Origin: Lunularia cruciata
Lineage: Eukaryota; Streptophyta; Marchantiopsida; Lunulariales; Lunulariaceae
Assembly (NCBI GenBank): GCA_948567375.1
Contig: OX419755.1
Span: 60,151,945-60,215,944 of the forward strand
Direction: 5' to 3'
DNA: 64,000 nt
Positions 7,252 through 64,000 of the stretch are shown here, piece after piece. Below the pieces are notes generated by a model. It ran no database searches. It worked only from the letters and a program-made list of their open reading frames with translations, and was not told where the DNA came from. The first letter of the stretch is position 1. Each line of letters starts with the position of its first letter. A program made the position numbers and the translations under genes.

Positions 7252-8539
7252 CTACACTGGGCCCTTGGGAGCAATAGTGTCATGCTCCCGACCACTAGAG
7301 GTCCCAACCTCTGTGTGAAAAAATCCCTCCACTCTAGTTGCAAGCTCCACACGTCCCTAGCTGCATCCCATGTGGACCAAGGGTGTAATCCAAGTAGCCC
7401 ACGCTCACTTGGATGGACTCCAAGTAGACCACTCTCCTTAGTAGCTATTGGATGTGTCCCAAGAATACCATGTCCACTTGGTCTATCGCTCCCAGCATGT
7501 GCCTGAATCTTCTTGATAGGCACAAGGCTCACAAGTGTCCAAGTGGTGATGCCTATCAAGTGCATCCTACGTTGCTCTGCCAAGCCAAGGCTCACAATCT
7601 AGGTCAAACAGTTTAGGTCCATAGCCTAACCTAACACCTGATGCTTGGATACCTCTAACACTACTAGAACAGCGGTAATACCGGTGCAAAAACCCATTGC
7701 CTGCTCTCTCTCTCATCAGTGTTGGGCTCCACCAACTACTGTAACTATGAGTCCCAAACAAGTCCAAGTCCTCCCTCTCAAAAAGCATGAGAGCCTAGGA
7801 AACTCATGAGTGTGGGAAATGCGGCTCTAGGCTGTCCAACTAGGTTCACCACTACCATAGGTGACCTATCAGCCACTACCACTGTCTAAGACTAGCGCCC
7901 AACATCCAAGATATCATCAACAAGGATGTGGTCAAGTCACTAAAACCCATCATAAGCACGTAGTTGACCCACTTTGGGTAAGAAGTTCGTCCACCAAAGA
8001 CGAAGACAATGAGCCCATGATCTCACTCTGGCTGCATCTAACAATACAGAAGGTCCCATCCAAGAATGGACCTAATGTGTACTCGCCACCACTCTGGTGC
8101 GAGAATCACCCATCAAAGGCACGTTCTCCAAAAGGTAAGTTGGAGAAATGGACTGATGAACTTGGAGATGTCGTAGTATCCATAACATCTCCCAAAACAC
8201 ACCAGAACAAGGATCTTGAAGACCCAAACCATAGCCCGCATGTGTATGTCCCTAACATGGCAATCCAAAAATCACCAAGTTAATAGACCCATGTCTCTCT
8301 AGGTCATGCGCCCTCAGTAAGGAAATATCTACTAGTAGGGCCTTCTGGTAACCTCTGACTGCTGACATTGGTAATAACTTTGGATACCAATAGGCCAAGT
8401 GTGCCACATGATGTATAGAGACTCACCTAGCAATTTCATCTCTCTCTACATACAAGTACCTCTATACTTGTATACCTGCCTGCAACACCGCAGCTAGTCC
8501 GGTGCTAATCCCACCAAACAACTCTAATAGACATATCCC
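7252..8539 (-). pseudogene. G2 DNA methyltransferase relic and linker to RT
   Basis: This matches the DNMT3-like domain of G1. Motif I (LFGGISTG) is intact near 8490-8515. The catalytic PCQ box near 8255 has become Pro-Cys-stop through CAG to TAG, with a Trp to Leu change just before it. The in-frame TAG followed by TTG that splits the domain before motifs IX-X in G1 is also present here (7738-7736). So is the TAG followed by CAGCCA (7254-7246) upstream of RT. The enzyme is clearly inactive in this copy, but the shared architecture shows that the methyltransferase belongs to the family and is not a one-off insertion. Confidence 0.85.
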
Positions 8540-15060: not shown

Positions 15061-15073
15061 TACCCCCTCCCTC
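15061..15073 (-). other. Polypurine tract of family X
   Basis: The minus strand reads GAGGGAGGGGGTA directly before the LTR start TGTGGTACC. It overlaps the stop of the integrase ORF. It fits the plus-strand primer site and marks X-b as a true 3' LTR. Confidence 0.85.
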
Positions 15074-26720: not shown

Positions 26721-26751
26721 TGATAAGAGCAATACCTAAAATAATTATGGA

Positions 26752-30048: not shown

Positions 30049-30167
30049 GTAACAGTTTTGAGATTTGAAGAGGCAGATATGAAGATGTGCATTGTCATTT
30101 CGGATCTACGGGTTAGAAGAGTTTTTGTAGAACGGGGTATAGTTGTTAGAACTGTCGATTGCTTCAC

Positions 30168-30175
30168 TATTTAAG
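30168..30175 (+). promoter_or_regulatory. Conserved TATTTAAG box in family X LTR
   Basis: TATTTAAG lies about 120 bp downstream of the U3 ORF and about 670 bp before the LTR end. The same box occurs at the matching place in copy b (near 12035, minus) and as TATTTAAA in copy f (near 56052). It is a good candidate for the core promoter of the genomic RNA. Confidence 0.55.
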
Positions 30176-35000: not shown

Positions 35001-36660
35001 TGCACTCTGGACTTCTCTTATTAGACCCATGAAATATCTATCGGTCTTATAGAGAGCTGTTGTCCCTATAACATAGAGAGGCAATTCTTGCTTGTGTGAT
35101 TTTTCTTTAACCCCATTGATCAACCATTTTTGCATTCTCATTGTTTTCTTCCTCCAATCTAACATAGGGTTGTAATGCTCCATCCATGGCATGCCTAAGA
35201 TTGCATCATAACAAGCTAATTGTATCACTTGCAATTCAATTGCTTCTTGATGTTCTCCTACAAAGTGTTACCTGTCTAGGTAATGATTCAATCCTCTTTG
35301 GTTGCCCATTAGGTAGCTCTACTTCTTTGCTCTCATCTCTCTTTAGATTCATTTCCAATCTTATTGCCACAGAGCAAGACAACAAAAATTCTTTGTTGCT
35401 CTCTGATCTATTAATACTCTCACTTGATTGCCTTCTAGGACTCCATTCATGACAATCAATTGTGAGGTTGCCTTTTGGGACCTTTGTGCTCTCATCCTCT
35501 TCTTTCCTTTGATTTTTTGCTTCTTTATTGAGCTAGTAAGGCCGCAAGGTACATTTACTGGTGATCTTTGTTTTCCAAAGTGATTTCCACCTCCTTCTCC
35601 TTAGTGCATCTTTCCATGTTGTTCAAAGATTGCTTGTATGAAGGCCGAGGGCCTCTAGGAAGACCAGCACAACAGTTGGTAGACATGTGCCCAATATGGC
35701 CACAATTGTAACAATAGCATTGTTCTCCTCAAGTTTCTTCTCCTTGTGGGTTTCCATCTTTCCGTTCTTCTACCCATCCACACTCTCCTTGAAGCGGCTG
35801 TGCTCCTCGGTCTCAAAACCAAAGGTTGCCCAATTCCATTGGTAATGGTCCACCCATGTGTGGCATTTCTGCCTGATAATGTTGAGGTGGAACTTCTCTT
35901 TCACCTCCACTTAATGCCCTTGTTATTCTCTACGCACAAGCAATGGCTTCAAATACCATGCAAAGATTTTGAACCATGACTTCTTGGCAAATTTGCTCCT
36001 TCAACCCTTGTTTGAAATTGTCAAGAGCCTCTGCTAGACTCATATCAATTATTGCAACTTGTAGATCTAAAAGTGCCTCCACATACTCTTGTACGTTGTT
36101 CTTTTGTTTCAATCCCCATAGTTGGATCCGGGCCATCTGCACATGATCCACCGACTGGAAATTTTTCAGCAATCCTTCTTGCATTGTTGTCCACGTGACC
36201 TCTCTTCTCTCTATCAACATGGATCGTTCTTGAGCATCATACCATGTGAGGGATCTATCGGTCAAGTACTCACATGCAAACACGCATGTAGCATGCTTGA
36301 TGAGCTCTATTGAGAACAATTGGAAATATCAATTCATTCGTGAGATCCAGTTCTCCACTACTCCCATTGTATGTTGCCCCTTATAAGACTCAATGTTGCA
36401 TGTCTTCTTCATCCGGAGTAGCAATGTGGCTTCATTGTTGATTGGGTTTGTAGGCACAAGTACCTCTCCAAGTACTTTGATCCCAGGTATTGGGTTTTGA
36501 GACAACTCTTCTTTTTGCATTGCTTGATCATTCCTGAGGGTCTACACTTGATCTTGTAATGCCTCCATGGTCATCTTAATCTCTCAAAATTTGCTCAACA
36601 TCCCTTGCATTCCTTGCACCAACTCTTGCAACTATAGGTCCATGGTTCTTCATGCAACAC
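32089..36660 (-). pseudogene. Y-b gag-pol-chromodomain polyprotein relic
   Basis: In minus-strand order: gag (35930-36660), one CCHC knuckle (CYNCGHIGHMSTNC, about 35680-35720), protease (about 35250-35430; IDQRAT where DSG or DTG is expected), its ILGMPW-like flap region (about 35160-35200), RT (34315-34875, with FLDD near 34370), RNase H (33640-33900), integrase (32560-33450) and chromodomain (32110-32290, EVEGILQKH ... YLV-WKGYSLYEATWEP). The chromodomain identifies a chromovirus, in which this module is known to guide integration to marked chromatin. Numerous TAG/TGA stops and a local palindromic insertion at 34521-34556 inactivate it. Confidence 0.88.
34521..34556. repeat. Perfect 17-bp inverted repeat (2-bp loop) inside Y-b RT
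   Basis: The arms are CCTCTACAATTCAGATT (34521-34537) and its exact complement (34540-34556). The sequence AATCTGAATTGTA recurs at 34566-34580. It lies where other gypsy RTs have a simple continuation from SGY to the KTTF block, so it is a local duplication-inversion. Confidence 0.9.
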
Positions 36661-37226
36661 TCAATTATTATTGTCTACTTCAATAGAAAGTTAATATGAT
36701 TACTCTGGAGGGCCACAAACTATTGGAACTACCATTGGGACCTCTAAAGCTACCACTTGTTGATAATATTCCTCACCAAAATTCCTGACAAGGAAATCTC
36801 TAAACATCACTTTTGGTCTCACTACATAACAAATTTCTACTTGAGTGTTAAAAGGGAAAGGATTTGGGACATTCAAATCCATCACAACAAAATCTAAATT
36901 GTCAAATCCCACTCTTTATTGTAAATCACTACAGGAAAAATCACTGGGTTTGGTGAATTCATCACTATATCCATGAACTCTACTCTGAAGTGAAAAACCA
37001 TATACACTCTCACTTGCTCACGCTAAATATACATAATCTTGATGTGGAATGGATTCAAGAATGGAAAGCAAGGTGTTGGATATTGTCCTCTTGGAGCCTC
37101 CATTCCACCCTTCTTCTAGCACTCATAATTGACCAATTACACCAGGATGTCTCTCCTCAAAATTATTGTCTCAGTAGCCCATGTTCTTCCAAGAGGGGTG
37201 ATCCAATCTCTTGGATGACAACACCT
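36661..37226 (-). other. Y-b leader between PBS and gag
   Basis: It holds a 70-codon open stretch (36700-36912, minus) with no recognised domain. Otherwise it looks noncoding. Confidence 0.5.
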
Positions 37227-37238
37227 GCTCTGATACCA
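37227..37238 (-). other. Primer-binding site, initiator-Met tRNA (Y-b)
   Basis: The minus strand reads TGGTATCAGAGC one base after the LTR end. It is the standard 12-base PBS complementary to plant initiator tRNA-Met. Confidence 0.92.
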
Positions 37239-37239
37239 T

Positions 37240-38012
37240 TGTAATACTCTGAGGATATGAGACTTGAGAAGAAATACACCATGAGAAACACATGATTTCA
37301 CTCTGAAACCTCCGAAGCCTCAAAGGAGCACCTTCTCTTTATTATATAGACAAAGAGGATCTCCTCCAAGGAAGCTCCACCCTAGGATAAGGCACACTAA
37401 TAGGTGACATGTCAACAAGCTCCACCCTTGGATTACTTACTTGGATGGGTGACATGTTGGTCTTGGTCCTATCTGGTTGGTCAAACAAGCTTTGATCAGA
37501 GGGAATATTTTAGGGAATCTTCTTGTAGGAATCTCAAAATTACGTGGGTGAGGTACCATTGGAAAGCTCTTGACAAGACAAAGCAAGGGAGAGGGAAGGC
37601 CAGCCTTTTCTTTGTTGGAGTGGAATTTACACATTTTTGAGGCCTAATTCATCCGTTTAGGTCTTCAAAATTGCCTTCAAAGATTTCAAGTATATTTTGG
37701 TTCCTACTCTATTAGTAGAAGTCCTCTTTTGGTGATACCTCTTTCTGATCTACTTAGTCCATCATGTGTAACATCCTTCCAGATATTACCAAAACAAATT
37801 CTCACCTTTTAATCATATATCTAGCTATTGGTTCTAAGGTTTTTTAAAGCTTCTAAGGTTCCAAGTCTATCTTGGTTTTTGTCCTATTAGTAGAAGTACT
37901 TTTTTGGTGATACTTCTATCTGATCTATTTTGACCATCATGTATTACATCATTCCAGATTTTACCAAACCAAATTTCACATCTAGATCATATGGCTAGCT
38001 CTTGGTATTACA
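37240..38012 (-). repeat. Y-b 5' LTR
   Basis: The unit is 773 bp with TGTAATA / TATTACA ends, adjacent to the PBS. It carries a small extra duplicated segment (TTCTAAGGTT near 37830-37860) compared with the 3' LTR. Confidence 0.9.
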
Positions 38013-38912
38013 TATGTTCATCATCAATTGGAGCACTCAACTCATTAGTTTATTTTGGAGAACACTCTTTGGAATCGTCAAAAACAAACTTGCTATGTCC
38101 ACAACATATCATCCACAAACCAATAGACAAATAGAGCAGTCCAATCACACTATTGAGGATATACTTTGGGGATTCATCTTAGAGGAGCAAGAAAGGTGGG
38201 ACACCTTACATCTACTAGTAGAATTTATGTATAACAATTTAGTGAATGCATCTACACATGTCACACCATTCTTTCTCATGTATAGAGAACACCTTTTTGC
38301 ACCTTCAAGCTTGGTAAAAGATCTGCCTAATGGCTACAAAAGTTGATGTTATCAACACTTTTGTTTCTAGAATCTAACAAGGTGTAGAGAATGCCAAGCA
38401 CAAGTTGCAAATTACCCAAAATCAACATAAACAATATGCAAATGTGCATTGCATATATATAGAGTTAAGCATTGGAGATCAAGTATGGCTTCCACAACCA
38501 ACCTCACGTTAGTTGGCCCTTGTAAGCTCAGACCTCATTTTATTGGGCCTTTTCCCATCCTTCATTGAATTGGCACAATGGCCTATCACCTTGAGCTACC
38601 ACCACACATGAAGATCCATTAGTGTTCCATGTTACTTTACTACATAGATGTACACCCCAACCGCCCCACTTTCCTTCCATGCAAGAAGTTTAACCTTGCC
38701 CAACACTCATTGATGGCAAGGAGGAATATGAAGTCAAATGTATTCTCTAGAAATGCATGCATGGTACCCACCATCTGTGTGTGGAATATCTTGTCCATTG
38801 AAAAGGGTACCTATTGTATGAGGCAACATGGTAAAAAATAGTTAACTTGATCCATGCAGTGGTGTTAATGCAATCTTTTGAGCGACCACTTTGCAATGAG
38901 TACATTACATCC
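38013..38912 (+). pseudogene. Y-a integrase core and chromodomain relic
   Basis: It continues the integrase of Y-a after Y-b. An open stretch of 114 codons at 38002-38346 spans the junction. It includes TTYHPQTNRQIEQSN (with the DDE glutamate region), the YNNLVNASTHVTPFF block and a GPF-like motif (near 38515-38560). A decayed chromodomain follows (38700-38870). Stops occur throughout. Confidence 0.82.
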
Positions 38913-38927
38913 TAAAAGGGGGAGGTT

Positions 38928-39536
38928 TGTAATACAATTAGCTAGACATAGTATCTAGAGGTAGAAATCAACTTGGTAATATCTTGAGAAATGTTATATA
39001 TGATGGTCTAAATAGATCAGATAGAGATGTCACCAAAATAGTATTTTCACTAATAAGGCAAAGGCCAAAAACACCCTGAAAACTTTAGAGCCAATTTTAG
39101 AGGCCTAAATAGATTAATTAGGCCTCAAAAATGAAAAATCTCTCCTCCAACAGGAAAGATATCACCTTCTCTCCCTATTTTTCTTGTTGAGAGCTTTCCA
39201 ATAGTAACTCACCTATGTAGTTCTAAGTTTCTTATAAGAAGATTCTCCAAAGATTCCCTCTAGTCAAACTTGTTTGACCAACCAAATGAGACATGTCAAG
39301 GATTGACATACCACTAAACCATGCAACAAATCTCAAGTTGGTGCTTGCTAACATGTCACCAATCCATGTATCTGATCCAAGGATAGAGTTCCCTTTGAGT
39401 GGATCCTCTTTGCTATATAATAAAGACAAGGTGCTCTTATGGGGCATCAAAGTATTGAGGGATGAAGTCTTGTCTTTCTCATGTGTTCCTTCTCTTGTGT
39501 TTCTCTTGGGGGTCCTCCTATCCTTGGAACATTACA
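38928..39536 (+). repeat. Y-a 3' LTR
   Basis: The unit is 609 bp, TGTAATACAATTAG to GGAACATTACA, directly after the purine tract AAAAGGGGGAGG (38914-38925). It belongs to the same LTR subgroup as 21844-22427. Confidence 0.85.
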
Positions 39537-43303: not shown

Positions 43304-44010
43304 TAGGCTGTGGTACTTGAATTTTTTGATTTTGACAAGTTTTAAAGAAGAAGTGTATTTTTGAAGCTGTGTTGATGGTTAATAAAGAAGAAAAGAGAAG
43401 AATTGTGTGTTTAGCATGAACCTGAAGAAGCAGACCTTGGGTTAGAGTTAGAAGGAATCAGGTTGGACTTATGGAAGTATGGACTCAAAGTAAGAGGAAT
43501 TTGTACTGCAATGCACAACCCAATCCAAAGGACCTATAAAAAATTTGCCTCAGGCCTAGCCAATCAAGAAAGTATGTGTAAAGAAAGCAACTACCTTGAG
43601 ATCAAGATGACATTGAGAGTGACAAAAAATAGACACATAGAATTGGCATGTCAATTGAGGATCTATTGGAGAATGACCAATTAGCAAAACACTATAAGAT
43701 TGAGACTTCATCAAGGGAGTTCTGAAATGTCATGATGATATCCCATGCCTTTCAACAGTTTCCCCAAAGGAGTTAGGATCTCATGTTTTGAGGAAGGTTT
43801 GATCTTTCAAAGATCAAGAGTGAGGAAGCACACGATGCAACCAAAGGGAAGTAAGAAGAATGTGGTGAGTGGTCTTGCAATCTTTTTATTAGATGTAGTG
43901 GCAAGGACCAAAGTCCTGAGCAGACTTTGCATCATCTTTTTGGCATTGAACTAGAATTTGAGCTTTCTAGAGTTCATGGCAAAAATTGCTATCAGTAGTT
44001 GCAAACACGG

Positions 44011-44450
44011 TGTCACGCCATTTGTAGTTCCGCATCTAGATGCTCGGACACTGGAGTTCCAGTGATGGTAGTTAGAGTTATTCTAGCTGTTTCTCAGGGA
44101 CTACTTTCCGACGGTTAGATTTCGTGTTCGGGGTACTGACTTCACGGTGGGGCCCACCGTCACTTTGCACCGTCGAGTGTGCCATCAGCGGGACCGTTAG
44201 GGTTTCAGGGCTAGCTCGAGTCCAGGGGGTATAGTTTCAAAGTGAGCTCCAAAGAGCTCACTTCTCTGATGTTGAGCCTTCGAGTTCCTGGCTATGGTGG
44301 ACAGAGGCCGGCGAGCGTCACCTGGATTCTCTATGCTTGAGTGGGTGTGGCTTGACTGTAATCAGTGCCCAGTTGTTGGCAGTTTATAGAGTGACAGATC
44401 AAGTACTGATCTGAGTTGAGTTGAGTTGAGAATGTTAAGCAATCTGATTA
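44011..44450 (+). repeat. Split direct repeat A1 of G1
   Basis: The 440-bp unit runs from TGTCACGCC to CTGATTA. Direct repeat of A2. It begins right at the target duplication with no B unit outside it. A TTTATAGAG sequence near 44383 is a possible TATA element. Confidence 0.93.
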
Positions 44451-45541
44451 CATCAGAGAAGTGAAGTCAGGGGGAAATCGGGTACAGGAACGTTGAGTGT
44501 TGGTGGTATCTCCAAGCTCGGTGGATCGTGGTAGCTCGATTCAGGTTCTGTGTTTCCCTAGTGTGCAGAAGCTCGTGTAGTTGATGCAAATTTGGCAGTT
44601 AGGCGGACGGTGTGCGGAAGCGCTGGCCAAATTTCGAGCAAAGAAGGAGCAATTTTTGAGCAGTGTTGTGATTTTGAGCTCAGGAGGTGAAGGCAGGACC
44701 AATTTGCTGCGAGTTGGGCTTGGAAAGTGAAATTGAAGGTGGAGTTGGAAAGCTCTTCTCATGAAATTGTGATTTGGAAAAACCCGTTTTGTCAATTTGG
44801 CTCGAGTGGAAAGTTAGCGGGGGATTTGGCGGACATCCATCTTTAGGGTTTACGTCAGATTTTTCGGCGTTTAGAGGCTTCGAGGCATAGGGCTGTGAGA
44901 GGCTACGAAGGCCTAGAAGGGCCAGCAAGCCAGCTTGCTGGCGTGAGGCTAGCTAGTTTAGTGTAGATCTTGGTCATTGGTTGGCAAAATCTGCCTTTCT
45001 TGCTAGATTGTGCGCAACAGGGTTTGACCCCTAGATCTCTTGTTCCTAGACTGGTGCCCTAGCCAACTGGTCCACCCTCACTTGTTGTCATAGTGACTAT
45101 GCCACTGTTATCTATACACATGTAGCTTTGGCTAGGAGAGGCAGTTTGATCCCATTCTTGGTGATCCTGGTAGCTTAGGACTTAGATACGAACTACTCTT
45201 ATGTCAAATGCCAAATGGTGGCAAAGTCAGTCCCATGTTGTGTTATGAGATGGAGGGTTTTTGTTTAGATTTCTTGTGATTGGATCCCCTCCATTCTCTG
45301 CTTCCTGTTTGTGCACCACGTTTGTGTGAGGTGCCTTGACTTTTGAGCGTTGGTGCTCTGGTGTGCTCTCGGTGGTGAGGCTGGAGTGATGACCAGTCAG
45401 ACTACCTTTGTTTCTCTCCGGTGAGGCAGGAAGTGATGACCTGCAGACCGTGAGAGTGCGTGTTATGATGGCAGGTTACAGGTTGCCCTTCCCCTAGTGT
45501 AGTTATCTCGGTTAGAGTTACATTAGTGGGTGGTGTTTTAG
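44451..45541 (+). other. G1 5' leader (about 1.1 kb, noncoding)
   Basis: It lies between A1 and the gag frame. No TGG-starting primer site follows A1. The sequence CATCAGAGAAG contains ATCAGAG, also found inside the usual initiator-Met PBS, and a TGGTATC occurs near 44500. Neither is a full PBS. No ORF is conserved between copies here. Confidence 0.75.
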
Positions 45542-46237
45542 TTGGTGTTGGCACGCGGTGGTGTTGGCACTTGGTGGGGCACTTGCGGTTGCGACTTGCT
45601 GTTGCAGTTGGTGGTTCGGGTTTGTTGGTGTGGTTACTTTGTCACGACGGAGTTCTTTGGAGATTCCAGAGGAGTTAGCCTTGCAGTACGTAGTGGGTTT
45701 ACTCGGAGTGGTGCTCGGTATCAGCCTGTATCTCAGGTCCCAGTGAGAGAGGAGATTGACTCTGAGTTGGAGTTCGACACAGGAGCTGATTCAGTTGAGA
45801 GTGCACTTGGTGTGTCCGCACCGTTGTTGTGGGACATGGACGAGATTTATGGGGCCTCCAAAGGCCCTAGGCGTTACTCTGGTACAGTGGGTACCATTGA
45901 GTTGGATGACTTCATCCAGGAGTTCGATAGTTGGTGTGATCTGCAGCAGATGCGGAACCCGACTTTGTTCACACCCTTCATGGCATGGAAGGGGTTGTTT
46001 CAGCACTTGGAGGGTCCACCGATGGACGACTACCATGAGTTCAGGAGAGCTCATTTGGAGGAGATTGAGTTATGGAGACAGTATTGGTCTCCACACTATG
46101 TCTCCATCACTTCAGGTTCGGTGGCCAGGAGTAGGTCGGCTGTACCCACGAGTTCTAGCTCGAGTAGTGTTGGTGGAGCTAGTGGAGGTGCACTAGCTGG
46201 AGATAGTGCTACTACGAGTGGAGGTACCGCTGCATGA
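45542..46237 (+). CDS. G1 gag N-terminal part, ends at in-frame TGA
   Basis: The frame is open from 45542 after a TAG at 45539. The first ATG is at 45836, and no other start is convincing. Alignment with G3 stays in frame upstream of that ATG, so the protein may begin earlier at a lost or non-AUG start. It encodes the matrix-like gag N-terminus (IELDDFIQEFDSW block, then a Ser/Gly-rich tail). The TGA at 46235-46237 (GCA TGA GGT) is also present in G2, while the diverged G3 has CAA there. The pattern fits an ancestral CGA. The frame continues directly into the next segment. Product: structural protein of the virus-like particle. Confidence 0.8.
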   Translation: MVLARGGVGTWWGTCGCDLLLQLVVRVCWCGYFVTTEFFGDSRGVSLAVRSGFTRSGARYQPVSQVPVREEIDSELEFDTGADSVESALGVSAPLLWDMDEIYGASKGPRRYSGTVGTIELDDFIQEFDSWCDLQQMRNPTLFTPFMAWKGLFQHLEGPPMDDYHEFRRAHLEEIELWRQYWSPHYVSITSGSVARSRSAVPTSSSSSSVGGASGGALAGDSATTSGGTAA

Positions 46238-49200
46238 GGTGGTGTGGTACCGGGGTTTAACCCCATGGTTGAGTTCTTCCTATGTTTGAGGCAGAACTAC
46301 CAAGGAGTGCGGACTGACAAGCTGAGGAGCTTGCAGGAGTTCCGGCGGAAGGCTGGAGAGAGCCTACGCGAGGCATACACTCGCATGAGGCGGCTGATCA
46401 GTTTCACTCAGGGAGTTACTGAGGCCCAGGCAGTCCAGTTTTGGTATGGGATACTGGACAGGGAGTTGCGACGTAGAGTTCGTGATGCTACGTTGTTGCA
46501 GGCTACTTCGCCCACTTTGGCAGTAGTCTTTGGTTTGGCTGAGCGTATTGAGCTCAACATGGTGGAGGAGAGAGTGGTGACATCTGGATTTGGTAGAGAG
46601 ACCTCATCCACGGTTGTGACTTCTTCTAGAGTGCATCAGAGTGCACCACGCCCAGTTGGTTTTCGAGGACAGGGTGGACAGCCCAGATCCTATGGAGCGA
46701 GTGGAGGGCCTAGTGGAGTTAGACCCTTACCCTCATTTTCGGGGCAGCAGCAGCCAGTGAGTGGTGGTGTTGCTTGTTGGACTTGTGGTGGACCTCACCA
46801 TAGGAGAGAGTGTACTCAGGGCAGCGGACCTGATACCTCTGGTGCATCACAGCCAGCACAGAGGCAGTGTGAGCACTGCCATAGATTTGGTCATACTAGT
46901 GACCGGTGTTTTGACCTACACCCGGAGTTACGGAGTGGTAGGGCTGCTATGGCAGGTAGTAGAGGAGCTCCAGTTCATGGAGGACGAGGTGGTAGAGGTG
47001 GTGGTAGAGGATCTACACCTAGTAGGGGTGCAGTACCTGCCCTTACTTCTGACACAGCTATGGCTACTCGGATTGAGCAGTTGGAGCAGAGATTGGCTAG
47101 TATGGCTATTGCTCATAGGAGATCAGATTCGGGTGCTGAGGCTTCCACCTCATATGCTGGTGATAGAGATGCTTTGGACTTCATGTGCGGAGCAGCACAG
47201 GTGGATGCATCTGCAGCAGTGACTAGGAGTGCAGTACGTGCTCCAGAGCCTAGAGGAGCATCAGTGGAGTTGGACCCACAGAGAGGAGAGGTTGGGAGAC
47301 AGGTCAGACTTCCCCAATCTTTCACGTTATCTGAGGCATTGCAGACGACATCCATGGTTCCTAGACGTCCCAGTGCAGGTGTGGTAGGTGGTGATGGAGT
47401 ACTTGATGGAGTACCTGCTAGTCAGCCACCTGCTACTACACAGATTGAGTCTAGCATGATGTTGGGGGCGGCTCAGCTGATTATGCGGCATCCTTTATTT
47501 TCAGCCAGTGACATGTTTACATTGGGAGTGGACCCAGCCCCAGTGTTCCGGTTGGCTGCCACGTTGTGTGAGAGTAGGGATGGTGCAGTTCCTACTACTA
47601 GAGCAGAGGTGGTTGGTAGTGGAGCTGACTTGGTTGAGGAGCATGGGATCCGTTCAGCGACCAGTGGTTTATGGCAGGCAGCAGCGGCTAGACTGGAGGA
47701 GTTGCCAGCTAGACCAGCCTTTGAGAGAGCGCGGTTTACACCTGGTGTTGTCCTATTGGATAACCAGAGGGGGATCTTTCATTTGGTAGGACCTTCAGGG
47801 AAGGTCTATACACCACAGAGAGTCTTGTTAGACTCTGGTGCGCAGCCCCTTATGTTGGGGAAGGCTGTAGTTGTTGGTCTGGAGTTACGGAAGACCGATG
47901 TGGAGAGGTGTCCATTTCAGATCCAGACATCTCTTGGTGGTGGTTTGACACAGTACATCACACGTGGAGAGCTTGTTGTCCAAGTTCAGCCTGGTCATCC
48001 GACTGATAGCTCGGTGGTGAGAGCTCAGGCTATTGCGACGATAGCTGAGTCCTATGATGTGCTAGTTGGGGGAGCAGTGTTATACCCTATGGGTTTCAGT
48101 ATTGACTATTGGGAGGAGACAGCCTCTTATAGACCTGGTTGGCAGTCTGGTGAGGGACGGGTATGTCGCCTACCAGTACGCTTCAGTAGTGGCAATCTTG
48201 GCTCACTACAGTCCGGGACCATGGCAGCATCAGTTTTGGCTTTCAGCGGTGCAGTTACTTGGCCTGGTGACTTGTTGGAGGGGAACGCCCATGCAGAGGA
48301 TACTCCAATACCAGAGGAGATCACTCGGCTATGGAGTACGAGTGGGATTGTTCCATCCACCTTGGATGTTCCATTGTGGAGTTCAGAGGAGGCATTGCAG
48401 CAGCATGCAGATCAATTGGTGCAGCAGGCTTGGAGTGGAGCCTTTGTACCATCAGGGGATGAGTGTGAGGATGAGCCTCCAGAGGTGATTGCTTTGACAC
48501 CTCTGGATACCACACTCATTGCTTGGCAGTATCCAGTAGAGGGGATATGCCTATTGGAGTTGTTTGGTGGGATCAGCACCGGACTAGCTGCGGTATTACA
48601 GGCGGGTATCCGAGTACAAAGGTACTTGTATGTAGAGAGAGATGAGACTGCTAGGCGAGTCTCTCTACATCATGTGGCACACTTGGCCTATCGGTATCCG
48701 GAGTTATTACCGATGTCAGCAGTCAGAGGTTACCAGAAGGCCTTACCAGGAGACATTTCCTTACTGGGGGCGCATGACCTAGAGAGACATGGGCCTGTTC
48801 ACTTGGTGATTTCTGGATGGCCATGTCAGGGACATACACGTGCGGGCCGCGGTTTGGGTCTTCAGGATCCTCGTTCTGGTGTGTTTTGGGAGATGTTACG
48901 GATACTACGACATCTCCAGGTTCATCAGTCTGTTTCTCCAGCTTACCTTTTGGAGAACGTTCCATTGATGGGTGATTCTCGCACTAAAGTGGTGGCGAGT
49001 ACACATCAGGTCCATTCATGGATGGGACCTGCTGTATTGTTAGATGCAGCCAGAGTGGGATCACGGGCTCATCGTCTTCGTCTTTGGTGGACAAACCTCT
49101 TACCCAGAGAGGTTCTACAGTGTGCTTATGATGGGATTCAGCGACTGGACCACATTCTTGTTGATGATATCTTGGATGTTGGGCGTCAGTCTCAGACAGT

Positions 49201-49345
49201 GGTAGTGGCTGATAGGTCACCCATGGCAGTGGTGAACCTAGTTGGACAGCCTAGAGCTGCATTTCCCACACTCATGAGTTTCCCAGGCTCTCATGCTTTT
49301 CGAGAGGGAGGACCTGGACTTGTTTGGGACTCACAGTTACAGTAG
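46238..49345 (+). CDS. G1 gag core, zinc knuckles, protease, DNA C5-methyltransferase
   Basis: In frame with the segment before. Domains: retrotransposon gag core (46244-46565); two zinc knuckles, CWTCGGPHHRREC (46775) and CEHCHRFGHTSDRC (46868); a Gly/Arg-rich stretch (46960-47040); aspartic protease with active site DSGA (47831) and DVLVGGAVLYPMG; a linker; then a cytosine-5 methyltransferase from 48542. Methyltransferase motifs: I, LFGGISTG (SAM binding, 48560); IV, GWPCQG with catalytic Cys at 48824; VI, ENV (48953); VIII, RAHRLRLWWTN (49064). Motif order is I to X, unlike the permuted plant DRM enzymes, and the VI-VIII spacing is like DNMT3. Expected activity is 5-methylcytosine formation in DNA. 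The TAG at 49343 cuts off motifs IX-X; it is shared with G2. Confidence 0.93.
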   Translation, partial: GGVVPGFNPMVEFFLCLRQNYQGVRTDKLRSLQEFRRKAGESLREAYTRMRRLISFTQGVTEAQAVQFWYGILDRELRRRVRDATLLQATSPTLAVVFGLAERIELNMVEERVVTSGFGRETSSTVVTSSRVHQSAPRPVGFRGQGGQPRSYGASGGPSGVRPLPSFSGQQQPVSGGVACWTCGGPHHRRECTQGSGPDTSGASQPAQRQCEHCHRFGHTSDRCFDLHPELRSGRAAMAGSRGAPVHGGRGGRGGGRGSTPSRGAVPALTSDTAMATRIEQLEQRLASMAIAHRRSDSGAEASTSYAGDRDALDFMCGAAQVDASAAVTRSAVRAPEPRGASVELDPQRGEVGRQVRLPQSFTLSEALQTTSMVPRRPSAGVVGGDGVLDGVPASQPPATTQIESSMMLGAAQLIMRHPLFSASDMFTLGVDPAPVFRLAATLCESRDGAVPTTRAEVVGSGADLVEEHGIRSATSGLWQAAAARLEELPARPAFERARFTPGVVLLDNQRGIFHLVGPSGKVYTPQRVLLDSGAQPLMLGKAVVVGLELRKTDVERCPFQIQTSLGGGLTQYITRGELVVQVQPGHPTDSSVVRAQAIATIAESYDVLVGGAVLYPMGFSIDYWEETASYRPGWQSGEGRVCRLPVRFSSGNLGSLQSGTMAASVLAFSGAVTWPGDLLEGNAHAEDTPIPEEITRLWSTSGIVPSTLDVPLWSSEEALQQHADQLVQQAWSGAFVPSGDECEDEPPEVIALTPLDTTLIAWQYPVEGICLLELFGGISTGLAAVLQAGIRVQRYLYVERDETARRVSLHHVAHLAYRYPELLPMSAVRGYQKALPGDISLLGAHDLERHGPVHLVISGWPCQGHTRAGRGLGLQDPRSGVFWEMLRILRHLQVHQSVSPAYLLENVPLMGDSRTKVVASTHQVHSWMGPAVLLDAARVGSRAHRLRLWWTNLLPREVLQCAYDGIQRLDHILVDDILDVGRQSQTVVVADRSPMAVVNLVGQPRAAFPTLMSFPGSHAFREGGPGLVWDSQLQ

Positions 49346-49828
49346 TTGGTGGAGCCCAATGCTGATGAGAGAGAGCGGGCGATGGGTTTTCGCACCGGTA
49401 TTACCGCTGTTCCAGTAGTGTCAGAGGCATCCAGGCGTCAGGTGTTAGGTCAGGCTATGGACCTGAACTGTTTGACCTGGATTGTGAGCCTTGGTTTGGC
49501 AGAGCAGCGTAGGATGCGCTTGATAGGCATCACCACTCGGACACTTGTGAGCCATGTGCCTATCGAGACGATTCAGGCACATGCTGGGGGCGATGGACCG
49601 AGTGGACATGGTATTCTTGGGACACATCCAGTAGCTACTAGGGAGAGTGGTCTACTTGGAGTCCATCCAGGTGAGCGTGGGCTACTTGGATTACACCCTT
49701 GGTCCACATGGGATGCAGCCAGAGGACGTATGGAGCTTGCAGCCAGAGTGGAGGGAGTTTTTCACACAGAGGTTGGGACCTCTAGTGGTCGGGAGCATGA
49801 CACCATTGCTCCCAAGGGCCCAGTATAG
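49346..49828 (+). CDS. G1 methyltransferase motifs IX-X and linker to RT
   Basis: In frame with the previous segment after the TAG. The first 50 codons complete the methyltransferase: ERERAMGF (motif IX region) and RRQVLGQAMDLNCLTW (motif X, the position of LLGRSWSV in DNMT3). A linker follows with short repeats of L-G-x-H-P. It ends at TAG 49826-49828, which is followed by CAGCCA. No ATG suits independent translation, so it is presumably made only as part of a polyprotein. Confidence 0.85.
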   Translation: MVEPNADERERAMGFRTGITAVPVVSEASRRQVLGQAMDLNCLTWIVSLGLAEQRRMRLIGITTRTLVSHVPIETIQAHAGGDGPSGHGILGTHPVATRESGLLGVHPGERGLLGLHPWSTWDAARGRMELAARVEGVFHTEVGTSSGREHDTIAPKGPV

Positions 49829-49834
49829 CAGCCA
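49826..49834 (+). promoter_or_regulatory. Candidate stop-codon readthrough site before RT
   Basis: TAGCAGCCA fits the known leaky-stop context UAG-CARYYA first described for tobamoviruses. The same nine bases occur at the same place in G2 (7254-7246, minus). The frame stays open on both sides, so readthrough would set the ratio of the gag-methyltransferase part to RT-integrase. Confidence 0.6.
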
Positions 49835-51499
49835 GTCAGTACGTCTTCCACTCCTACTACAGTTACAGAGGATACTTGGGAGCCAGATCTTGGACCCAAG
49901 CTTACTGGAGAGGAAAGACGGAGGGTTTGGAGGTTCTTGAGGAGTCACACGAGTTGTTTTGCCTTCAGTATGAAGGATTTGGGTGCTCTGAAGGGACCTG
50001 GTATACGGATTGAGCTGACTAGCGACACACTTGTTTTCCGACGTCCTTATCGATATAGTGAGATGGAGAGGACATTGATTCAGAGCCGGAGTAGTGACCT
50101 TTTTGAGGCTGGTTTGGTGGAGATTTCACATGGAGAGTATGCATCAGCGACAGTGATGCCAGCCAAGAAGGATATGCATGGCAACTATACAGATAGGCGG
50201 ATGTGTGGAGATTACCGTCCTATCAACCGACAGACTAGGGCTGATCGGTATGCCATGCCTACACCGGAGGAGATTTTTGATGCGATTGGGCATGAAAAGG
50301 TCTTCAGTACTTTGGATCTTCGAGCGGGATATCATCAGTTGCCGATCAGGGAGGAAGATAAGTCCAAGACAGCATTTTGGGCTATTGATCCTCACGGCAA
50401 GGATGTGTTATATCAGTGGAGATTCTTACCATTTGGGTTGAAGAATGCTCCTGCTGAGTTCCAGAGGGTCATGGATAGGATCCTAGCTGGACTAGATTTT
50501 GCTCGGTGCTATATTGATGACATTTTGGTGTATAGCACTACTGTGGAGGAGCATGAGAGACAGTTGTTGGAGGTGTTTGAGAGGTTGAGATCTCATGGAC
50601 TCAAATTACATCCTGGGAAGTGTAGGTTCTTCCATGAGCAGGTTGAGTATTTGGGTCACACTATCTACCCCGGAGGACTTGGTGTTCAGCAGACCAAGGT
50701 GGAGGCTATTGCACGTATTCCTCGGCCTACGGATGTGAGCAGAGTGCGAGCATTCCTTGGGTTGGCAAACTTCTATCGCCGCTATGTTAGAGGATTTAGT
50801 GCCATTGCCAAGGCCTTGACAAAGCTGACCAAGCTTACACAGGAGTGGTGTTGGGGAGATGAGCAGGAGAGAGCTTTTGTAGAGCTCAAGGAGAGGTTGA
50901 CATCTGCTCCTATTTTGAGGAGACCGATCAAGGGACGACCATTTCAGGTTCACACTGATTGGAGTATGTTGGGGCTTGGAGCGATGCTCACCCAGCATGA
51001 TGATGAGGAGAAGGAGTTTGTGGTGGTCTATGCTAGTCGCTCCAACAATTCAGCGGAGGCGAAGTATAGTTCATATGAGGGAGAGTGCTTGGCAGCAGTT
51101 TGGGCAGTAGCACATTTCCGATGTTACCTATTTGGTAACCCCTTCACTCTCATCACTGATCATCAGCCGCTGAAGTGGTTGATGGAGTCCGACAAGCTTT
51201 CAGGGAAGCTTGCACGATGGGCTCTGATTTTACAGGAGTATGATTTCACGGTTGTTCACAGACCTGGAGTGGTGAACCGTGATGCAGATGGGTTGAGTAG
51301 AAACCCATGTCCCAGCCAGCAAGATCAGACCGGAGCACGTTGGCATGGTGAGACAGATGAGGAGATGGTGCCAGGTTGGCATGCATCAGCCTTTCTGTGT
51401 ATATTCGCAGAGACATTGGTGGTATCTCTCTCAGCGCATACAGGAGGAGTTATTGAGGTCACAGATCCAGAGAGTGAAGATATTGGTACAGTTCAGTGA
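49829..51499 (+). CDS. G1 reverse transcriptase and RNase H
   Basis: It continues in frame after the TAG. RT motifs: the KDMHGNYTDRRMCGDYRPIN palm entry, LDLRAGYHQL with catalytic Asp at 50315, FLPFGLKNAPAEFQR, and YIDD at 50510-50521. The RNase H domain follows, with HTDWSMLGLGA (Asp at 50957), SYEGECLA, TDHQPLKW and VNRDADGLSR. The residues needed for polymerase and RNase H activity are present. The TGA at 51497 (CAG TGA GAC) is CAA in G2, so it is probably a private C-to-T loss at an ancestral CGA and would separate integrase from RT in this copy. Confidence 0.93.
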   Translation, partial: QPVSTSSTPTTVTEDTWEPDLGPKLTGEERRRVWRFLRSHTSCFAFSMKDLGALKGPGIRIELTSDTLVFRRPYRYSEMERTLIQSRSSDLFEAGLVEISHGEYASATVMPAKKDMHGNYTDRRMCGDYRPINRQTRADRYAMPTPEEIFDAIGHEKVFSTLDLRAGYHQLPIREEDKSKTAFWAIDPHGKDVLYQWRFLPFGLKNAPAEFQRVMDRILAGLDFARCYIDDILVYSTTVEEHERQLLEVFERLRSHGLKLHPGKCRFFHEQVEYLGHTIYPGGLGVQQTKVEAIARIPRPTDVSRVRAFLGLANFYRRYVRGFSAIAKALTKLTKLTQEWCWGDEQERAFVELKERLTSAPILRRPIKGRPFQVHTDWSMLGLGAMLTQHDDEEKEFVVVYASRSNNSAEAKYSSYEGECLAAVWAVAHFRCYLFGNPFTLITDHQPLKWLMESDKLSGKLARWALILQEYDFTVVHRPGVVNRDADGLSRNPCPSQQDQTGARWHGETDEEMVPGWHASAFLCIFAETLVVSLSAHTGGVIEVTDPESEDIGTVQ

Positions 51500-52942
51500 G
51501 ACATTCATGATGATGTCTTAGTGATGGACTATCTTCGCACTGGTGTTGTGGGTGGCGCAGTTGGGGCCAAGGAGAGAGACCGTGTTCTTCAGCGAGCCAG
51601 ACGGTTCAGATTGGAGGGTAGACACCTTTTGCGTGTATGGGAGGATAGTAGAGTGCGAGTAGTACCACTTCCATCACAGAGACCACAGTTGGTCCGTCAT
51701 GCTCATGAGGAGCTAGGACATTTTGGAGTAAAGCGTACATATAGCTTACTCCAGAGTCATTATTGGTGGCGCGGTATGCAGACCGAGGTACAGCAGTTTG
51801 TTGCCAGATTTGTGGTTTGTGACCGAGTTAGAGCATCATTCAATGCTCCTACGCCACAGTTACACCCATTACCTATCATGGGATTGGGTTACCGTTGGAG
51901 TTTGGACTTCGCCGAACCTTTACCGCTGACTGTGAGACATCATCGGTATGTTTTGGTGATGGTGGAGCACTTCTCCAAGTGGATTGAGTTGGTGGCACTT
52001 CCTGACAAGTCTAGTGAAGGGACAGCTTACTCGTTCCTGGATCGAGTTCTTAGTCATTTTGGTGCACCAGCTGAGGTTTTGACTGATCAGGGTACAGAGT
52101 TCTTGGGAGAGTTTCAGGTCTTGTGTGACAAGGCTTTGATTGATCATCGTACTACATCCCGAGATCACCCTGAGGCAGATGGCTTAGCAGAGAGAGTGGT
52201 TCAGACGGTGAAGAGAGGATTGCAAAAGTATGGTTTGCAGAGAGGCCACTTGGGAGATTGGGATCTCCAGTTACCTTGGTTGGCCATGGGCTATCGGTTC
52301 AGCCGGCAAGCCTCCTTAGCATCCTTCTCTCCATACTTTCTACTCTATGGACGAGATCCAGATTTACCTGCAGCCATTCGTCGAGATGCTACTGTAGTTT
52401 TGGACTTGGATGACCCTGATGTATGGATGAGCGCATGTTCTCAACGGGCAGAGATCTTTCGGAGAGTGATGCCGATGGCCTTCAAGAACTTGGCGATTGC
52501 TCAGCATAGAGATACTTTACGCTATGCTACCATTCGAGGAGGAGGTTATAGACCCTCGATCCGTCGATTTCATCCAGGCGACTATGTATATCTACAGCAG
52601 ACAGCACCGACGACACTTGATGTTTCTACAGGCCGCACTATCTTGAGAGTGCGCGAGGTTTTGCCATCTGGAGTCCTTGTGTTAGAAGGACGTGATGGTG
52701 TTGTTTGGAAGGATCATGTGCGCAATTGTGCGCCATGCCACCTCCCAAACATTGATGGTACTATGGACCCAAGCTTGGCACTTGTACGTGCAGGCTTGAG
52801 GTGTATGTTATGTGGCTCTTTTGGTGGAGCTGCTACTATGTTGGTGTGTGATAGTTGTTCGAGAGGATGGCATATGGCATGTATGACTCCTCCCCTCACG
52901 GTGGTTCCTCAGGGACAGTGGTTATGTCCTAGATGTACTTGA
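51500..52942 (+). CDS. G1 integrase with C-terminal PHD finger
   Basis: In frame after the TGA; the first ATG is at 51521. The N-terminal zinc finger has the His pair (HEELGH, near 51704), but the first Cys is Phe (FVVC at 51809; CVVC in G2). The DD35E catalytic core is complete: Asp in SLDFAE (51905), Asp in LTDQGTEF (52085), Glu in GLAER (52190). An SH3-like C-terminal domain (GDYVYL ... RVREVLPSG) follows. The last 45 residues form a C4HC3 PHD finger (52802-52939), with Cys pairs at MLC and CDSC, His in RGWHMAC, and WLCPRC at the end. PHD fingers commonly bind histone H3 tails, so it could replace the chromodomain in targeting. That role is inferred. Confidence 0.93.
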   Translation, partial: DIHDDVLVMDYLRTGVVGGAVGAKERDRVLQRARRFRLEGRHLLRVWEDSRVRVVPLPSQRPQLVRHAHEELGHFGVKRTYSLLQSHYWWRGMQTEVQQFVARFVVCDRVRASFNAPTPQLHPLPIMGLGYRWSLDFAEPLPLTVRHHRYVLVMVEHFSKWIELVALPDKSSEGTAYSFLDRVLSHFGAPAEVLTDQGTEFLGEFQVLCDKALIDHRTTSRDHPEADGLAERVVQTVKRGLQKYGLQRGHLGDWDLQLPWLAMGYRFSRQASLASFSPYFLLYGRDPDLPAAIRRDATVVLDLDDPDVWMSACSQRAEIFRRVMPMAFKNLAIAQHRDTLRYATIRGGGYRPSIRRFHPGDYVYLQQTAPTTLDVSTGRTILRVREVLPSGVLVLEGRDGVVWKDHVRNCAPCHLPNIDGTMDPSLALVRAGLRCMLCGSFGGAATMLVCDSCSRGWHMACMTPPLTVVPQGQWLCPRCT

Positions 52943-53109
52943 CCTATAGCTAGTTCATTCTTTATATGGTATAGATTGCAGACAGGCGACTAACGATGGG
53001 GCTCCATAGCACCCGGCCTCCTGATCTTTGCCCATTAGAGGGTATACCATATACTTAGAGTAGATGGCTATCTGGAGTTAGAGGGACCTAACCACCAGCT
53101 AGGGGGGCG
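52943..53109 (+). other. G1 3' untranslated region and polypurine tract
   Basis: This is about 160 bp after the PHD stop, ending with AGGGGGG at 53101-53107, the plus-strand primer tract. B1 begins within a few bases of it. Confidence 0.85.
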
Positions 53110-53110
53110 A

Positions 53111-53216
53111 TTGTGGCACTTTAGAGTCTATGTATGACTTATGTGTGAGTTGTGCTTTTATAGTGTATGATGTTGACAGCGATGTATGTTGTGTAGCGAT
53201 GTATATACGCACGACA
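53111..53216 (+). repeat. Split direct repeat B1 of G1
   Basis: The 106-bp unit runs TTGTGGCAC ... CACGACA and is identical to B2. It follows the purine tract and precedes A2 with two bases (GC) between. Confidence 0.93.
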
Positions 53217-53218
53217 GC

Positions 53219-53667
53219 TGTCACGCCATTTGTAGTTCCGCATCTAGATGCTCGGACACTGGAGTTCCAGTGATGGTAGTTAGAGTTATTCTAGCTGTTT
53301 CTCAGGGACTACTTTCCAACGGTTAGATTTCGTGTTCGGGGTACTGACTTCACGGTGAGGCCCACCGTCACTTTGCACCGTTTGCACCGTCGAGTGTGCC
53401 ATCAGCGGGACCGTTAGGGTTTCAGGGCTAGCTTGAGTCCAGGGGGTATAGTTTCAAAGTGAGCTCCAGAGAGCTCACTTCTCTGATGTTGAGCCTTCGA
53501 GTTCCTGGCTATGGTGGACAGAGGCCGGCGAGCGTCACCTGGATTCTCTATGCTTGAGTGGGTGTGGCTTGACTGTAATCAGTGCCCAATTGTTGGCAGT
53601 TTATAGAGTGACAGATCAAGTACTGATCTGAGTTGAGTTGAGTTGAGAATGTTAAGCAATCTGATTA
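53219..53667 (+). repeat. Split direct repeat A2 of G1
   Basis: The 449-bp unit is a direct repeat of A1 with one extra 9-bp tandem copy (CACCGTTTG, near 53375) and about half a dozen substitutions. Confidence 0.93.
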
Positions 53668-53773
53668 TTGTGGCACTTTAGAGTCTATGTATGACTTATG
53701 TGTGAGTTGTGCTTTTATAGTGTATGATGTTGACAGCGATGTATGTTGTGTAGCGATGTATATACGCACGACA
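53668..53773 (+). repeat. Split direct repeat B2 of G1
   Basis: The 106-bp unit directly abuts A2 and ends CACGACA at the target duplication ACGG. A2+B2 together (555 bp) match the solo unit at 58586-59140 in length and ends. Confidence 0.93.
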
Positions 53774-53777
53774 ACGG

Positions 53778-58585: not shown

Positions 58586-59140
58586 TATCACGCCATTTGT
58601 AGTGTCGCATCTAGATGCTCAGACATTGGAGTTCTAGTGATAGCAATTAGAGTTATTTCAGAAGTTTCTCAGAGACTACTTTCCAACGGTCAGATTTTTT
58701 GTTTGGAGTACTGACTTCACGGTGGGGCCCACTATCACTTTGCACCATTTGCACCGTCAAGTGTGCCATCAGCGGGACCATTAGGGTTCAAACCTTGCTC
58801 AAGTCTAGGGGGTATACTTTTCAAGTGCAGCTCTAGAGAGCTCACTTCTTTGATGTTGAGCCTTCGAGTTCTTGGCTATGGTGGATAGAGGCCGGCAAGC
58901 ATCACCTGGATTCTCTTAGCTAGAGTGGGTGTGGCTTGACTGTAATTAGTGCCCAGTTGTTGGCAGTTTATAGAGTGACAGATCAAGTACTGATTAGAGT
59001 TGAGTTGAGTTTAGAATGGTAAACAATCTGATTATTGTGGCACTTTAGAGTCTATGTATGACTTATGTGTGAGTTGTGCTTCTATAATGTATGATGTTGA
59101 TAGTGATGTATGTTGTGTAGCAATGTATATATGCACGACA
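58586..59140 (+). mobile_element. Solo A-B terminal unit of family G, TSD GACC
   Basis: The unit is 555 bp: TATCACGCC ... CTGATTATTGTGGCAC ... CACGACA, flanked by GACC at 58582-58585 and 59141-59144. It has A followed by B in the order of A2-B2, with no internal region. Recombination between A1 and A2 of a full element would leave exactly this. It shows more CpG decay than G1. Confidence 0.9.
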
Positions 59141-61013: not shown

Positions 61014-61401
61014 TGTGGTGCCCACATTTTTTGTTTTTTTTCAAAATAAAGAAGAAGAAGTGTATAGAGAAGTCGGATTGTGCTTGTATGGCCGAAGAAG
61101 GCAAAGAAAAGAGTCTTCGGGATGAAACCCAAAGTAAAGTGACTTTGGGTCATAAGGCAAAGTACTCGGAAATGCCTTGTCAGCACACAACCCAAAGTAA
61201 GGAGTCTTTGTATCGAGGGGAGCTCAACCCAAGGCGAAGTTAGTCTAACAACCTTTTGTCGGGGCAAGAAATTCAAGAAAGGACCATTCAAAAACCGGCG
61301 GCCCATACGCGCAAAGTATGATTGACAGTGACAGGTGCATGCAGGATGTGTGATTTCTTGGTAGAAACTCGAAGTGAAGAAAGACAAAGAAAGCGCAACT
61401 C

Positions 61402-61408
61402 TATAAAA
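61402..61408 (+). promoter_or_regulatory. TATAAAA box near the start of the U3 ORF
   Basis: TATAAAA in CTCTATAAAAATTG also occurs at 27512-27518 and, on the minus strand, near 3256. It lies only about 20 bp before the conserved ATG (61429). A transcript started from it might therefore use a later ATG, or the box may be coincidental. Confidence 0.4.
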
Positions 61409-61428
61409 ATTGAACTCGCAACAACGCA

Positions 61429-63998: not shown

Positions 63999-64000
63999 TA

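Follow-up and report, generated by a model that had tools for sequence, protein, structure and literature searches.

The window, a stretch of 64,000 nucleotides of Lunularia cruciata DNA, contains at positions 44011-53773 a Ty3/gypsy retrotransposon, G1, that encodes a DNA methyltransferase (MTase). Its coding region reads in frame from gag with zinc knuckles through protease (PR), MTase, reverse transcriptase (RT), RNase H and integrase to a PHD finger (Table 1), an order based on Pfam for the MTase and all domains downstream of it, and on alignment to relatives. The Pfam match of the gag region does not reach the threshold (E 0.036), and the protease, for which there is no Pfam match in the window, was placed within about 47700-48150 by alignment to relatives and carries a DSGA motif; in the relative P0022, weak protease matches stay below threshold. 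The RT-RNase H-DDE integrase order, the TG...CA ends and the short target duplication are Ty3/gypsy features. Among solved structures, the matches of the PHD finger include the PHD fingers of CHD4, KMT2D, KDM5 and ATXR5. Chromoviruses likewise have a chromatin reader at the integrase C terminus, but there it is a chromodomain, which the PHD finger replaces in G1.

Table 1. Features of G1 and of related sequences in the window.
Feature	Position	Strand	Evidence or remark
Repeat A, 5' copy	44011..44450	+	begins TGTC
gag, aspartic protease and linker	45836..48541	+	candidate start codon 45836
In-frame TGA in gag	46235	+	common to G2
Zinc knuckles in gag	46775 and 46868	+
DNMT3-type cytosine-5 MTase domain	48542..49489	+	Pfam, motifs, best structure match
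In-frame TAG in MTase	49343-49345	+	motif IX/X part downstream of TAG
TAG CAG CCA closing the gag-PR-MTase frame	49826..49834	+	stop and type I readthrough consensus CARYYA
RT and RNase H	49829..51496	+	Pfam RVT_1 4.6e-32, RT_RNaseH 1.5e-35
In-frame TGA before integrase	51497..51499	+	G1 only, not in G2
DDE integrase with C-terminal extension	51500..52801	+	Pfam H2C2 zinc-binding and rve core, 5.3e-17 and 3.8e-13
PHD finger at integrase C terminus	52802..52939	+	Pfam PHD 1.7e-10
GGGGGG run, polypurine-like, just before inner B	53102..53107	+	direct reading; similar in L001
Repeat B, inner copy	53110..53216	+
GACAGCTGTC palindrome at inner B/A junction	53213..53222	.	element ends GACA and TGTC with GC between them
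Repeat A, inner copy	53219..53666	+	vs 5' copy: 5 substitutions and one 9-bp indel
Repeat B, outer copy	53667..53773	+	ends GACA; identical to inner B over 107 bases
ACGG, 5' copy of 4-bp target site duplication	44007..44010	.	direct reading
ACGG, 3' copy of 4-bp target site duplication	53774..53777	.	matches 44007..44010
Decayed MTase domain of copy G2	7739..8539	-	83% amino acid identity over 267 residues vs G1
Solo A-B remnant of the G1 family	58586..59140	+	GACC on both flanks

An earlier note on this DNA had proposed that a DNMT3-like MTase is built in frame between protease and RT, and our analysis confirms this: Positions 48542-49342 match PF00145 (DNA_methylase) with an E-value of 3.2e-8 (33.8 bits against a cut-off of 22), and the best match of this MTase piece among solved structures is DNMT3A (E 1.4e-9). 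With a profile of ten family MTases, DNMT3A is again the best solved match (E 6.5e-24, 87.6 bits), and the predicted structure of a natural homologue superposes on DNMT3A/B. In both sequence and fold the MTase resembles DNMT3 more closely than it does other C5 MTases, DNMT2 included. Motifs I, IV (PCQ), VI (ENV) and VIII (AHRLRLWWTN) follow each other in colinear order as the note had read them; the circularly permuted order of DRM is absent, and the best stretch of DRM chains, at their C-terminal part, extends over no more than profile positions 1 to 127-129. The motif IX/X part, however, lies behind an in-frame TAG that had gone unmentioned. Since this stop precedes motif X both in G1 and in the second copy G2, neither window copy is an obviously complete enzyme. 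The domain is uninterrupted in Marchantia and Calypogeia protein models and in the locus L001, the one relative outside the window that could be read as DNA, whose MTase is 53% identical. All ten aligned family MTases share the catalytic Cys, Glu-Asn in ENV and one motif VIII Arg, and two of them (P0030 and P0031) have ECQ in place of PCQ. Among relatives, conservation is higher in the MTase than in gag or the linkers; judged by such domain conservation rather than by codon statistics, the MTase is kept like an enzyme. The catalytic domains of mammalian DNMT3A/3B are 26-27% identical to the family MTase in structural alignment and differ from it in having PCN for the PCQ of G1 and in the PWWP and ADD domains: no Pfam match to PWWP, ADD or DUF3444 was found in the six window frames or in seven relatives.

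The stop that closes the gag-PR-MTase frame differs from the other interruptions: It is followed by CARYYA, the type I readthrough consensus known as a plant-virus motif (PMC5382211), and the RT frame resumes in phase behind it. The same UAG-CARYYA is present at the MTase/RT junction of L001, so the motif is seen in two lineages. Because the MTase lies upstream of this stop, it is probably made together with Gag. The MTase is thus part of the polyprotein, as had been claimed, but not simply a part of Pol, as it sits on the Gag side of a seemingly conserved stop. Of 23 protein models of relatives, 15 end at the junction, three later (172-187 amino acids) and one after 21 amino acids, whereas four continue, perhaps through predicted introns, beyond the MTase to RT or integrase; at the DNA level, the stop is confirmed for the window copies and L001 only. 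None of the other in-frame stops of G1 precedes CARYYA, and for these, programmed readthrough was rejected. The two stops shared with G2 (46235 and 49343) may be inherited or may reflect parallel decay at methylated sites.

Two equal long terminal repeats around the coding part are not what G1 has: its direct repeats are split in the order A-coding-B-A-B, with A at the 5' end and B-A-B at the 3' end, as in DIRS/PAT elements. The A copies differ by five substitutions over 438 aligned bases and the B copies by none, indicating that G1 moved rather recently. The junction palindrome GACAGCTGTC is identical in L001 (at 7051), where the inner junction alone is the evidence for split repeats. In other respects G1 departs from the DIRS/PAT type: the integrase is of the rve/H2C2 kind, no tyrosine recombinase was matched by Pfam in the window frames scanned, and insertions are flanked by duplications, ACGG for G1 and GACC for the solo remnant. 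A canonical tRNA primer site was not found after A, the best candidate matching 8 of 12 positions. Empty-site copies of the insertion locus are visible at 14465-14196 and 3042-2849. The arrangement of G1 also recurs in public proteins and in G2, so that the region is no assembly chimera; for the G2 MTase, the range given earlier (7590-8539) was close, and inheritance of the arrangement within the family was read correctly. G2 is the older copy and heavily decayed, with many stops and one frame change in its MTase. Its C-to-T decay follows the plant CG/CHG contexts, a pattern that fits host enzymes and is uninformative on the element's own MTase; the other repeats of the window are more diverged and provide no usable control. 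Elsewhere in the window, the repeat ORF at 62206-62781 had no protein match at E <= 0.001 among 212 candidates, and the tRNA and Rfam scans (gathering scores) were empty.

There are 54 public protein matches to the family, the named ones mostly from liverworts and Sphagnum; 17 are Marchantia proteins (several genome versions, many partial). Of 19 proteins that contain RT as well as MTase, 11 have a second architecture, RT-RH-MTase. No K. nitens protein is named among the 54 or among a further set of 27 matches, and the latter (7998 candidates sharing most words were scored) include no plant DNMT3 or KnitGypsy by name. A genome scan yielded 19 loci, of which L001 is the one examined, and found, as an element of the G1 kind; it is filed under a cyanobacterial MAG and is taken as a contaminant because its content is that of a eukaryotic-type retroelement. 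One comparison drew on 31 MTase rows and on an RT tree of 15 rows, which included a decayed outgroup fragment whose eight stops were written as X. A separate, midpoint-rooted MTase tree combined 15 sequences from elements with 20 loci picked by profile score and spread from the 48 that remain besides L001. In this latter tree, the output of which flagged long branches and uneven letter make-up, DNMT3A, seven bacterial DNMT3-like enzymes and the 15 element MTases group together (100/100) apart from 13 other bacterial and phage MTases, in agreement with the DNMT3 type. Human DNMT3A (partial, and the sole DNMT3 in the tree) falls beside the Bacteroidota-type MTases (98/93) rather than those of the elements. 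The Bacteroidota loci L002-L005, L008, L009 and L011 reach 80-93 bits against the family profile, like DNMT3A, although these values come from two profile builds (hmmbuild of A1 and another), so that small differences mean nothing. Since the fit of these enzymes to the family equals that of DNMT3A, the match scores do not favour descent from a host DNMT3. Unlike the element domains, the Bacteroidota MTases are standalone frames of 218-355 amino acids on bacterial contigs (the one of 218 near a contig end). One further DNMT3-like locus, L006, comes from an unassigned bacterium. A viral origin was rejected: viral frames reach at most 59 bits among the matches listed, below DNMT3A. Single-sequence scans found no match in viral contigs, a profile scan gave 30 loci that are 26-50% identical over parts, and the best viral structural match has a TM score of 0.66 at 21% identity, which is not comparable with the PDB scores because Foldseek was used for the former and VIA-align for the latter.

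The combination of an MTase with a gypsy element is rare and has already been described: that MTase-bearing retrotransposons occur in dinoflagellates and a charophyte had been stated correctly (de Mendoza et al. 2018, PMC5890265). By description, G1 is of the kind of KnitGypsy-Dnmt3 from the alga Klebsormidium nitens, a Ty3/gypsy element with a non-permuted DNMT3-type MTase in its polyprotein and a DIRS-type repeat layout (PMC5890265), whereas the named relatives of G1 are mostly from liverworts and Sphagnum; the term PHD is absent from the main text of that paper. Purifying selection is reported for the K. nitens MTase, as compared with domain conservation for the G1 family; the enzyme gave no methylation in yeast, a result its authors call inconclusive (PMC5890265). 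SymbioDIRS-Dnmt3 of Symbiodinium resembles G1 in its A-coding-B-A-B repeats and in a DNMT3-type MTase that shares its frame with RT, but has a tyrosine recombinase in a separate ORF where G1 has a DDE integrase and 4-bp duplications (PMC5890265). Likewise, PAT has split repeats and DIRS1 an MT domain in pol (RT/RH/MT) (PMC2685390), while G1 differs from both in its integrase. According to survey passages citing de Mendoza 2018, some DNMT3s of streptophytes and dinoflagellates sit in LTR (termed Copia) and DIRS retrotransposons; these passages name no bryophyte element, stop readthrough or repeat structure (PMC12344493). New here are the relatives in liverworts and Sphagnum, the candidate readthrough stop, split repeats together with a DDE integrase, the integrase PHD finger and the CG/CHG decay of G2. 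The earlier contrast with a DRM order in plant hosts tells half of the story, because true DNMT3 occurs in non-flowering plants as well (PMC6453930).

Cytosine methylation silences transposons, and an element with a de novo methyltransferase of its own is therefore a puzzle. As the best explanation of the whole, we lean towards the idea that G1 is a retrotransposon of the KnitGypsy-Dnmt3 kind in which the MTase, linked to Gag, acts on newly made DNA of the element itself and methylates it. Most ribosomes would stop after Gag-PR-MTase and a few would pass UAG-CARYYA, adding RT and integrase, so that particles may take up almost as much MTase as Gag. Inside them the enzyme would methylate cytosines, probably in CG, of the new DNA before or just after insertion, and the new copy would likely benefit by being protected or marked in the manner of the host. 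For DIRS/PAT elements it has been proposed that the ends are rebuilt from the inner junction; the A-coding-B-A-B repeats imply the same for the B-A junction of G1, which would be followed by ordinary integrase cutting at TG...CA and insertion by the DDE integrase, for which the PHD finger may act as a guide. The window copies look broken, and intact relatives would supply the working enzyme; the suggestion that the element methylates its own or other copies is thus conceivable for relatives or an ancestor, but not evidently for G1 and G2. That the family is defunct in the source genome and its MTase a relic would account for the shared stops, the additional stop at 51497 and the decay of G2, yet the recent movement of G1, the uninterrupted L001 and the conservation of the MTase make this very unlikely.

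It is tempting to relate the MTase to the repeats: elements with DIRS-type repeats might need it to protect a circle-like intermediate or to tell strands apart. Both traits are found together in G1/G2, in L001 as far as its inner junction shows, and in KnitGypsy-Dnmt3 and SymbioDIRS-Dnmt3 (PMC5890265), and the RT/RH/MT order of DIRS1 pol (PMC2685390) resembles the second architecture among the relatives. However, this is a correlation in few lineages. Moreover, many PAT-type elements are not known to carry an MTase, and we regard such a role as improbable. Even less probable is an action in trans, by which de novo methylation outside the element would alter host chromatin or blunt silencing: DNMT3-type enzymes act on many sites, and a product made at Gag level could be abundant, but the methylome of K. 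nitens is land-plant-like despite its DNMT3 elements (PMC5890265). The Gag-linked position, the ECQ variants and the RNA methylation raised for the LINE type (PMC5890265) might point to a nucleic-acid binding part of Gag or to an RNA methylase; against this stand the invariant catalytic residues and a sequence and fold that match DNMT3 and not DNMT2 best, leaving it little credence.

G1 and its relatives extend the known algal case to land plants, namely to liverworts including Marchantia polymorpha, for which the main text of a methylome paper reports five DNA methyltransferases in the three classes MET, CMT and DRM and no DNMT3 (PMC5784723). A wider and rather doubtful generalization is a Ty3/gypsy class widespread in streptophytes or the green lineage that would unite a Gag-protease-DNMT3 polyprotein, UAG-CARYYA readthrough, a packed MTase, DIRS-style rebuilding at a palindromic junction, DDE integration and a PHD reader. 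On that view, the life cycle would include methylation of the replication intermediate as a functional step, which would explain the association of split repeats with an MTase. The readthrough stop and the junction palindrome lead to concrete predictions on dosage and replication, and the role of the element MTase is accessible to genetics, as the family proteins occur in Marchantia and other liverworts, which are tractable laboratory plants.

The cytosine-5 methyltransferase (MTase) domain that an earlier note had described inside the polyprotein of the Ty3/gypsy element G1 is real. The translated region contains motif I, PCQ, ENV and a motif VIII that resembles DNMT3, in the colinear order of a C5-methyltransferase, and a profile search returned the Pfam family DNA_methylase (E 3.2e-8). 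The proposed set of motifs from I to IX-X is present in colinear order, but it is interrupted: an in-frame TAG at 49343 lies upstream of the last conserved part of the G1 MTase, ERERAMGF...LGQAMDLN, which can be aligned with relatives beyond the stop. The decayed copy G2 indeed carries the same domain, with 83% amino acid identity to G1. The stops at 46235, 49343 and 49826 are common to both copies, and the stop at 51497 is absent from G2. Besides the MTase, G1 encodes gag (two zinc knuckles), a protease (PR) with a DSGA motif, reverse transcriptase (RT)-RNase H (RH) and a DDE integrase that ends in a PHD finger. The solved structures nearest to this finger are those of CHD4, KMT2D and related proteins, and the fingers of KDM5 and plant ATXR5 are also among the matches. 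Elements of this kind, with a DNMT3-type MTase in a gypsy element, have been known since 2018; our work adds the land-plant range, the putative Gag-side readthrough arrangement, the demonstration that split repeats go with DDE insertion, and the PHD finger.

Features of the window
Feature	Position	Remarks
G1	44011-53773	9,763 bases, TGTC... to ...GACA
MTase region of G1	48542-49490	
MTase domain of G2	8539-7739	minus strand
Solo A-B copy	58586-59140	flanked by GACC
Second, abundant repeat family	1-3647, 27132-30716, 61014-64000, about 11358-14465	long coiled-coil-like ORFs
Nested insertion within G2, between leader and gag	11195-18259	about 7 kb made up of other repeats; contains remnants of integrase and RNase H
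Partial diverged gag related to G1	20067-21097	plus strand; 51-60% amino acid identity in pieces; adjoins other repeats
Further repeats and gypsy fragments outside the G1 family	31922-39508, 21860-27114	roughly 71-89% mutual DNA identity

There is good evidence for a programmed readthrough between MTase and RT, by which the MTase would fall on the side of Gag. G1 and G2 have TAG CAG CCA at this stop. The sequence is TAG CAA TCA in L001, a locus from a genome scan (MTase 53% identical), where 1,162 (5'-open) and 1,047 open codons flank it in the same phase. Plant RNA viruses use UAG-CARYYA as their type I readthrough signal (PMC5382211), and both contexts match it; CARYYA follows 18 of 6480 stop triplets in the window. 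This stop was read in DNA for G1, G2 and L001 only; the other relatives were judged by their protein ends, which do not prove a stop. In 15 of 23, the public protein ends 63-148 amino acids past the MTase without RT; three end after 172-187 amino acids and one after 21, and the public models of the other four extend into RT or integrase. We found no mention of a readthrough stop in the text sections consulted of the 2018 paper on KnitGypsy-Dnmt3 of Klebsormidium nitens (PMC5890265).

The ends of G1 differ from ordinary LTRs: part A (440 bases) stands without B at the 5' end, and B-A-B is found at the 3' end. In G2 the 5' A likewise lacks an adjoining B; of the 3' repeats an inner B-A is present, the outer end being lost. 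The inner B|A junction of G1, GACA-GC-TGTC, is a palindrome of the two element ends plus two extra bases. The identical ten bases occur at the matching position in L001, and a polypurine-like G run directly precedes the inner B in both. Since G1 has target duplications (ACGG on either side) and an empty site (the surrounding repeat has two further copies, at 72-73% identity, that lack the insertion), the split-repeat layout goes together with DDE-type insertion. The mechanism by which the ends would be rebuilt is inferred. For KnitGypsy-Dnmt3, a figure legend reports Gypsy domains together with DIRS-type repeats (PMC5890265).

The domain identities suggest that the MTase has been kept as expected of an enzyme. 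Against Marchantia P0004, they are 74% for MTase, 61% each for PR and gag and 48% for linkers; against another public protein, P0007, 81% for RT-RH and 70% for MTase; and against L001, 69% for integrase, 67% for RT-RH, 62% for PHD, 53% for MTase, 44% for PR and 31% for gag. A first protein search gave 54 matches (17 Marchantia polymorpha, 1 Calypogeia fissa, 2 Sphagnum, 1 Closterium, 33 without species name); nine of them carry a PF00628 (PHD) annotation, and many others stop short of the integrase. Sections of a 2025 survey, citing the 2018 paper, place DNMT3s in streptophyte and dinoflagellate retrotransposons (PMC12344493); in searches of open PMC papers we found no description of bryophyte elements of the G1 kind. 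In a single-sequence search with window pieces, 19 of 75 proteins had both RT and MTase, the MTase preceding RT in eight and following RNase H in 11. Because these layouts separate in the MTase and RT trees, with partly weak support, the MTase would either have moved or have been gained more than once.

The decay of G2 follows the plant pattern, in which methylated CG and CHG cytosines are deaminated. With G1 taken as the less changed copy, C-to-T changes in G2 affect 172/534 CG, 183/756 CAG/CTG, 18/144 CCG and 169/3036 CHH sites, and 15/230 CG sites in the opposite direction. At least G2 was therefore methylated in the germ line, by whichever enzyme.

G1 sits inside one member of the second repeat family, and another abuts the broken inner A of G2; eight of nine scanned repeat ORFs lack a Pfam match, and the ninth gave an integrase zinc-binding domain. 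L001 (1-8182) has an uninterrupted gag-PR-MTase/RT-IN-PHD coding part, its 5' gag end cut by the contig. It comes from a public 'Synechococcales cyanobacterium' MAG contig and is most likely eukaryotic contamination. Seven other loci (L002, L004-L006, L008, L009, L011) lie on bacterial contigs, mostly Bacteroidota, and encode standalone DNMT3-like methyltransferases, with the motif AHRRRLYWTN in L002 and L006; they can serve as outgroups when the origin of DNMT3 is traced.
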